Shown in pieces: positions 18,731 to 19,981 of a stretch of 64,000 bases of DNA. This DNA comes from Desulfurivibrio dismutans (lineage in GTDB: Bacteria > Desulfobacterota > Desulfobulbia > Desulfobulbales > Desulfurivibrionaceae). Every line of letters begins with the position of its first letter. Position 1 is the first letter of the stretch. The position numbers and the translations under genes are program-made. The notes beneath the pieces are model-generated. The model saw only the letters and a list, made by a program, of their open reading frames with translations, did no database searches and was not told the origin of the DNA. Where the stretch lies: positions 62,001 to 126,000 of the forward strand of contig NZ_JARGDQ010000003.1 of the NCBI RefSeq assembly GCF_029210385.1, in the 5' to 3' direction.

Positions 18731-19981
18731 TCAGGATAAACGGCTGCGGTAATCCTGGTAGCCGAAGCGGCGGATAACCGCCAGGTGGTCGGTGGAGGGG
18801 TCGTAGGTGGCGATATTGGGCAGGCGCACGCCGTTGAAGGTGGTGTTCTTGACCATGGTGTAGTGGGCCATGTCGCCGAAGACCAGGCGTTGGCCGGGGA
18901 CAAGCGGCTCCGGGAAGGAGTAGTCGCCGATGATGTCGCCGGCCAGGCAGCTTAAGCCGCCCAGCCGGTAGGTGTGGGGGTAGCGGCCCGGCTCCCCGGC
19001 CCCGAAGATCTCCGGCCGGTAGGGCATTTCCAGCACATCGGGCATATGACAGGCGGCGGAGGTGTCGAGAATGGCGATACTGATTTCGTTTTCCACTATA
19101 TCCAGCACCCGGGCCACCAGCACCCCGGTATTAAGGGCAATGGCCTCACCGGGCTCGAGATATACCTGCAGCCCGTAGCGCTGCTGGGTTTCGTCGATCA
19201 GGCGGCAGAGCAGTTCGCGGTCGTAGTCATCCCGGGTGATATGATGGCCGCCGCCGAAGTTGAGCCACTTCATGCCGTGGGCAAAATCGCCGAACTTCTT
19301 GTTAAAAGAAGCCAGGGTACCGGCCAGGGCGTCGGCGTTCTGCTCGCACAGGGCGTGGAAATGCAACCCCTCGATACCATCCAGCAGTTCCGGGCGGAAT
19401 TGCGCACGGGTGACCCCCAGGCGGGAATAGCGGCCGCAGGGGTTGTAAAGATCGACCTCCACCTCGGAATATTCCGGGTTCACCCGAACACCGCAGGAAA
19501 TCGCCCGTAAGCGATCACGGGGCACCGCAGGTTGCGACGATCGAGCCTGCGGCACCCCGTGACCGCTTACCCCCTGGCCCCCGTCAGCCGTTATAATTGC
19601 CCGATTATGGGCCGCCACCTGATCTTTGTAGTGCTGCCACTGGTTGAAGGAGTTGAACACCAGATGGTCGGCATACCCCAGCATCTCGGCAAAGTCCTCC
19701 TCCCGGTAGGCCGGGCAGTAGACATGGACCTGGCCGCCGAACTCCTCGGCGGCCAGCCGGGCCTCATCCAAGGAGCTGGCGCTGGCTCCCGGCAACACCG
19801 CCCGAATCTGCGGAAACAGGCTCCACATGGCAAAGCCCTTAAAGGCCAGGATGATCCTGGCCCCGGTGCGCCGTTGCACCTGGTCCAGCACCGCCAGGTT
19901 GGCCGCCAGCCTGCCGGTGTCGCACACGTAGCAGGGCGTGGGCACCCGCTCGACAAAAGGAAATTGGGAAATCGGCGCCAC
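18731..19981 (-). CDS. nspC: Carboxynorspermidine decarboxylase, carrying an in-frame palindromic-element insertion
   Basis: A 416-residue PLP enzyme of the alanine-racemase-fold decarboxylases. Family landmarks are TPCYVCDTGRLAANLAVL, ILAFKGFAMWS (PLP lysine), HLVFNSFNQWQHYKDQV, NPEYSEVEVDLYNPCGRYSRLG, HALCEQNADAL, LNFGGGHHITRDDYD and LEPGEA. It decarboxylates carboxyspermidine or carboxynorspermidine in the alternative spermidine pathway. About 35 residues (around TADGGQGVSGHGVPQARSSQ) fall between the QWQHYKDQV helix and the NPEYSE strand where family members have only a few residues. They are encoded by palindromic copy D and its flank at 19507-19610. The frame is kept, so the enzyme may still work with an extra loop. 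Confidence 0.9.
   Translation of the reverse strand: MAPISQFPFVERVPTPCYVCDTGRLAANLAVLDQVQRRTGARIILAFKGFAMWSLFPQIRAVLPGASASSLDEARLAAEEFGGQVHVYCPAYREEDFAEMLGYADHLVFNSFNQWQHYKDQVAAHNRAIITADGGQGVSGHGVPQARSSQPAVPRDRLRAISCGVRVNPEYSEVEVDLYNPCGRYSRLGVTRAQFRPELLDGIEGLHFHALCEQNADALAGTLASFNKKFGDFAHGMKWLNFGGGHHITRDDYDRELLCRLIDETQQRYGLQVYLEPGEAIALNTGVLVARVLDIVENEISIAILDTSAACHMPDVLEMPYRPEIFGAGEPGRYPHTYRLGGLSCLAGDIIGDYSFPEPLVPGQRLVFGDMAHYTMVKNTTFNGVRLPNIATYDPSTDHLAVIRRFGYQDYRSRLS
19507..19570 (+). repeat. Large palindromic element, copy D (shortened), inside nspC
   Basis: The outer arm GTAAGCGATCACGGGG pairs with CCCCGTGACCGCTTAC. Most of the core is deleted, leaving CACCGCAGGTTGCGACGATC and GAGCCTGCGGCAC. 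It lies on the strand opposite to nspC and adds codons without a stop. A tail similar to that of copies A and C follows (GGCCCCCGTCAGCCGTTA). Confidence 0.88.

Follow-up and report, generated by a model that had tools for sequence, protein, structure and literature searches.

In-frame fusions between MITEs and host genes are not unusual, and a review of prokaryotic MITEs presents the Rickettsia palindromic elements (RPEs) as the extreme case while allowing that a similar mechanism may have operated outside Rickettsia (PMC10969869). So far, in-frame palindromes within conserved proteins have been treated as nearly private to Rickettsia and its kin. In Coxiella burnetii, the QMITEs found in functional annotated genes lie at the 3′ ends of those genes (PMC5896051). 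Insertion sequences of the IS66 family are marked by ends that begin with GTAAGCG and by 8-bp target duplications (PMC11946415).

Here we describe a dispersed palindromic repeat of Desulfurivibrio dismutans, one copy of which lies within nspC, the gene for carboxynorspermidine decarboxylase, in the 64,000-nucleotide stretch of DNA that was analysed (the window). The repeat resembles the RPEs in comprising dispersed palindromes of ~100–150 bp, many of them in frame within unrelated protein genes, where they lengthen the product by tens of residues and leave the frame open, some copies being kept across species. It differs from them in belonging to another bacterial phylum, in having as host a free-living soda-lake bacterium where the RPE host is intracellular, and in its GTAA tips, its 8-bp duplications and a visible, matching IS66-family element. 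By this analogy, which is one of behavior, the family may best be described as an RPE-like MITE of IS66 type. With IS66 insertion sequences and their MITEs it has in common the GTAA tips, the 8-bp target duplications and, in subfamily II, the tip of an autonomous element; unlike an IS66 insertion sequence it has no transposase gene, is only ~133–151 bp long and mostly palindromic, combines a common core with tips that differ between subfamilies, and has an additional half tip at one of its ends. QMITE1 and QMITE2 are likewise families of short MITEs, present in tens of copies and overlapping reading frames, in some cases as in-frame insertions (PMC5896051), whereas here conserved enzymes are interrupted internally. 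The GTAG/CGTC REPs are also short palindromes of high copy number, but they measure 20–40 bp and have GTAG or CGTC tags, in contrast to the 133–151 bp, GTAA tips and 8-bp duplications seen here (PMC3733652). The literature we searched, which included little from subscription journals, held no earlier account of this repeat in Desulfurivibrio.

The insert in nspC

The nspC frame runs open through 416 codons (Table 1), and its product scores 493 bits against TIGR01047 (cutoff 409), covering the model from position 1 to 380 of 380. In a detailed alignment with 14 relatives, four congeners among them, the sole large difference was an insert of 96 nt, or 32 residues, at approximately residues 129–160, which contains no stop and no frameshift. 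Genome-wide protein searches recovered the NspC of relatives as two blocks, query 1–129 and 159–416, that are contiguous in the relatives' DNA. The insert was found neither in any aligned relative, where the site is empty, nor in the solved NspC structures in the PDB. Its length is that of an 88-bp element together with an 8-bp target duplication, and the element is read in NspC as ITADGGQGVSGHGVPQARSSQPAVPRDRL. One of its tips is ATAA instead of GTAA. Compared with the intact copy in rlmN, exactly 45 bp are missing from the middle, with the junction falling within the palindrome. A search of the insert against its own genome returned 53 matches at E <= 7.2e-4, the best of them, self excluded, at E = 2.9e-12, a similarity to the repeat family well beyond chance. 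Next to nspC is an open and intact saccharopine-dehydrogenase-like gene, presumably encoding carboxynorspermidine synthase, the pathway partner of NspC.

The preliminary description had proposed that a palindromic element sits in frame inside nspC, and this is upheld: the extra residues are the element, the site is empty in relatives, and the family bears a transposition signature. Of the span it gave, 19507–19610 with about 35 residues, the start is correct, but the end lies at 19594, which gives an 88-bp element that adds 32 residues together with its 8-bp duplication. What it called copy D is indeed in nspC but is not full length, the middle 45 bp of the 133-bp copies being absent. The alignment bore out both the uninterrupted frame and the lack of a counterpart elsewhere in the family; we looked for a relative with the same segment but no similarity to the palindrome and found none, and similarity to other copies, far from being absent, is strong. 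The comparison with RPEs applies to the in-frame behavior, while the family looks like a different, IS66-like one. The empty site in all relatives shows that the element came into nspC only once the closest sequenced species, whose nspC is 89% identical at the DNA level, had split off, in keeping with the earlier suggestion of a move recent enough to be seen. The nspC copy is nonetheless not among the youngest, since its target duplication is mismatched and it carries an internal deletion.

Table 1. Positions of nspC, its insert and further copies of the repeat (window coordinates unless a contig or stretch is named; G000 is the own genome).
Feature	Position	Strand	Basis or remark
nspC, carboxynorspermidine decarboxylase, 416 aa with in-frame insert	18731..19981	-	open frame, TIGR01047, PDB homologues
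88-bp palindromic MITE copy in nspC, subfamily I	19507..19594	-	tips GTAAGCGATCACGGGG and ATAACGGCTGACGGGG
Target duplication, left copy, 8 bp, AATCGCCC	19499..19506	.	flank of nspC insert
Target duplication, right copy, 8 bp, AATTGCCC	19595..19602	.	7/8 identical to left copy
Junction where 45 bp (15 codons) present in 133-bp copies are missing	19546..19547	.	alignment; slides ~2 nt
Saccharopine-dehydrogenase-like gene	19984..21171	-	ORF list
Intact subfamily I copy, 132 bp	8042..8173	+	perfect 8-bp duplication CCAATGAC
Intact subfamily I copy, 133 bp	15994..16126	+	perfect 8-bp duplication CCTGTAAC
Subfamily II copy, 133 bp	38795..38927	-	8-bp duplication with one mismatch
Palindromic core copy	23545..23652	-	tips GTAACTATTCAG
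Palindromic core copy	40872..40979	+	tips GTAAACGGGCAG
Palindromic core copy	50222..50327	+	tips GTAAGTTGGCAG
Palindromic core copy	63173..63282	-	tips GTAAACGATCAC
holB tandem element units	G000:C3:43056-43164 (stretch L224)		own genome
cbiD copy, own genome	G000:C1:16175-16284 (stretch L125 630-2159)	-	
cbiD copy, G002	stretch L363 1586-2962	+	

The repeat family and its IS66-like ends

A covariance model built on seven copies from the window was used to search the own genome (2,838,417 bases in 33 contigs) and detected at least 150 copies of the palindromic core. GTAA tips with an 8-bp duplication were present in 31 of the 150 copies listed (21 perfect, 10 with one mismatch), the duplication thus being still visible in only about one fifth of them; chimeric controls gave no perfect duplications and 0–2 near ones per shuffle over 20 shuffles. 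At 88–154 bp, the elements are too short to encode a transposase of their own. Three subfamilies have the palindromic core in common and differ in their tips: subfamily I (GTAAGCGATCACGGGG, ~133 bp), subfamily II (GTAACTGTCCAGCAGC and GTAACTATCCAGCTCA, ~133–134 bp) and subfamily III (GTAAACGTTCAGCAGC and GTAACCGTTCACCAGG, ~151 bp). A single core is in this way joined to at least three IS66-like tip pairs. The core is present in 62 of the 78 genomes searched, own included, up to the level of the order. An Rfam scan of the window returned one tRNA only, and the palindrome matched no described RNA family.

G048, a genome from the same order, contains an autonomous IS66-family element (1,729 bp; stretch L377, 1343–3071). 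This element has a 475-aa transposase matching PF03050 and a perfect 8-bp duplication, GAATATTT, and its end, GTAACTATCCAGCTCA, is identical to the subfamily II tip at 16 of 16 nt. The IS66 elements of the own genome and of G002 have ends GTAAGCGCTCA; the subfamily I tip has only GTAAGCG-TCA in common with the single IS66 element of the own genome, and none of the genomes searched yielded an autonomous element ending in the subfamily I tip. To judge from sequence, the case for assigning subfamily II to IS66 is strong, and we infer the same assignment for subfamily I, the nspC copy included. Across relatives, the presence of element copies does not track that of an IS66 transposase, which lowers our confidence in the transposase assignment; IS66 transposase went undetected in the copy-rich relatives G001, a genome only 79% complete, and G013. 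The IS66 element of the own genome (stretch L127) is bordered by a repeat, 33–323 and 2571–3614, with the same N-terminal 35 residues encoded twice. This repeat is without a matching 8-bp duplication and may reflect either the assembly or a local duplication of larger extent.

Several further features of the copies were observed. Those at 40872, 50222 and 23652 (-) start in the last codons of genes, where the TAA of the tip is apparently the stop codon, and their hairpin may function as a terminator or 3′ end. In the congener G003, many element copies with the same score lie 8–13 nt from the ends of contigs (C9, C64, C65, C69, C130, C132, C155, C176 and C183), as though the element had multiplied recently and its near-identical copies had interrupted the assembly. 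The window also holds another short repeat, with core GTCGGCGCCGCCGCTTTTTGCGACGCCGACAACTTT, at 34084–34145 and 34191–34252 (107 nt apart) and, distant and inverted, at 62090–62123, as well as a 40-nt repeat (GAGGCCGGCAGGATGCCGGCCGAGAATGAG...) at 7965–8004 and 21583–21622, with 85% identity, one copy of which is 37 nt from an element copy.

In-frame copies in other genes and the coding phase

The phenomenon is wider than nspC, as copies also lie in frame in other core enzymes. Comparison of spanning frames with curated models identified in-frame copies in rlmN, cbiD, ileS, holB and nifB of the own genome, the models being split or preceded by the element at these sites. The rlmN copy is 133 bp with a perfect duplication, the nifB copy lies close to the N terminus, and holB (DNA polymerase III delta′) has two tandem units in frame, ~80 residues, between two model blocks. 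The rlmN and ileS sites are empty in relatives. Searches with the element peptide located in-frame copies in two congeners, in queA, mutL, lnt, murD, murE, folC and pepN of G001 and in murF and cbiD of G002, and here too the element splits or precedes the curated models; duplications are perfect at the murD, murF and uvrC copies. The cbiD insertion occupies the same position in the own genome and in G002 and is open in both, so it most likely predates the split of these two species and has stayed open since. Just upstream of the in-frame element, the own cbiD has a second, decayed half copy, QEPAQSPQDAGP.

Insertions near gene starts (cobQ, rsmB, nrnA, uvrC and cobB) were not counted as firm, since the true start could be downstream; at cobQ, cobB and uvrC the element precedes or splits the model in the own or congeneric genomes. 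Sixteen frames run across copies and extend for 60 codons or more to either side. Most of these have no support as genes, being antisense or overlapping frames, and in one case, 49649–51028, the real gene is an overlapping permease-like frame, 48966–50225. Long frames from the peptide search (stretches L349, L351 and L360) had no family match and were set aside.

With its duplication, a subfamily I element amounts to 133 + 8 = 141 nt, or 47 codons, and the in-frame copies with resolved ends are mostly exactly 133 bp, giving a sum divisible by three. In 5 of the 8 subfamily I copies with duplications, the GTA phase, in which nspC reads its element, has no stop in either orientation, compared with 13% in shuffles, although the copies share descent and so do not count as independent observations. 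The copy at 15994..16126 is stop-free in this phase on both strands, and the four subfamily II copies of 133 bp have stops in every one of the six frames. These properties raise the possibility, which we put forward tentatively and consider somewhat doubtful, that subfamily I is a 'coding-neutral' transposon lineage, of whole-codon length once duplicated and open in the GTA phase in both orientations. If so, about one third of insertions into genes would give a protein with an added surface loop where the gene would otherwise be broken, and the lineage could spread through core genes across a whole bacterial order, supplying new protein segments as it goes on, some of which, as in cbiD, would be kept across species.

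The history of the insertion and the state of NspC

Between the own genome and G002, the nearest species, dN/dS for nspC was 0.144, and between G002 and G001 it was 0.124; these values span both whole lineages, and a loss of function that happened very recently would escape detection. By this measure, NspC looks to be under purifying selection. In the AlphaFold model, residues 134–156 have pLDDT below 50 and the remaining fold is mostly confident, placing the low-confidence insert between helix 112–134 and strand 162–167. Foldseek matched the model to 9eaf_B with a TM score of 0.96 (target-normalised). In (beta/alpha)8 enzymes, loops leading from helix to strand lie at the other end of the barrel from the active site. 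The insert, whose place on the fold had been raised at the outset, is thus predicted to form a disordered loop on the side that does not bear the active site, and because it would be such a surface loop, NspC is probably still active.

We propose that an IS66-family transposase acting in trans inserted a 133-bp subfamily I element into the part of nspC that links helix alpha4 to strand beta5. This first insertion would have added 47 residues, and the gene would have survived it since 141 nt make 47 codons and the GTA phase holds no stop. A later 45-bp deletion within the palindrome would then have taken the insert from 47 to 32 residues with the frame kept. This order of full insertion followed by deletion is putative, and the shortening could have preceded the jump; no other copy with the nspC type of shortening was found among the matches of the insert to its own genome. 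Selection would have tolerated the insertion, the added residues forming a disordered surface loop on the opposite side of the barrel, and the same filter of tolerance may account for the in-frame copies in other core genes. The insert is presumably translated, in which case the tryptic peptides expected from sequence are AIITADGGQGVSGHGVPQAR and SSQPAVPR for NspC and VSDHGAPHLAAIEPAHVLMYALPSR for the RlmN insert. As a whole, the explanation that the nspC segment is a non-autonomous IS66-type MITE, inserted in frame with the enzyme retained, is in our estimation highly probable.

A rival reading is that the element does not derive from IS66 and that some other recombinase or transposase spread the palindrome and left the 8-bp duplications and GTAA tips. 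In its favor, several copy-rich genomes are without IS66 transposase, and a core with at least three tip pairs is not explained by simple internal deletion of one IS66 element. That these tips and duplications are IS66 hallmarks (PMC11946415), and that an autonomous IS66-family element of the same order bears the subfamily II tip over 16 nt, makes such an origin unlikely. It is also conceivable that the insertion inactivated NspC, the open frame being that of a recent, undecayed pseudogene and the in-frame length a matter of luck; the insert is long, polyamine genes can be dispensable, and a very recent loss would leave dN/dS unmarked. We regard this as improbable given that whole codons were present before and after the inferred 45-bp deletion, with no stop, that the score is well over the nspC equivalog cutoff and dN/dS is low, and that the predicted fold is intact with the insert on a loop. 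The essential genes ileS and holB, moreover, carry comparable inserts, indicating that such inserts are tolerated.

In principle, a strong palindrome could be cut out of the mRNA or skipped by the ribosome, before or during translation, which would give an enzyme of normal length. Neither process would require open, in-frame sequence, which is what the nspC insert and the copies in other conserved genes are, and we know of no excision or bypass system for MITEs; we give this explanation very little credence. Surface loops between helix and strand do vary in length among TIM barrels, but to see the segment as an ordinary loop expansion unrelated to the repeat, or as chance similarity, is scarcely credible when its DNA resembles dispersed copies with E down to 2.9e-12, tips stand at its borders beside a flanking duplication, and no relative has the insert.

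The in-frame palindromes described here show the behavior of the RPEs in a free-living, culturable bacterium, where they involve core enzymes that act in translation, replication and wall synthesis and where both the empty sites of close relatives and the signature of transposition can be seen. Two old questions can thereby be put to the test: by what means such elements move, and whether the residues that they add are merely tolerated or become useful. The proteome of what is apparently this strain (AMeS2) has been published, with 1,864 of 2,491 proteins detected by use of trypsin (PMC12142623), so translation of the inserts could be checked without new cultures.
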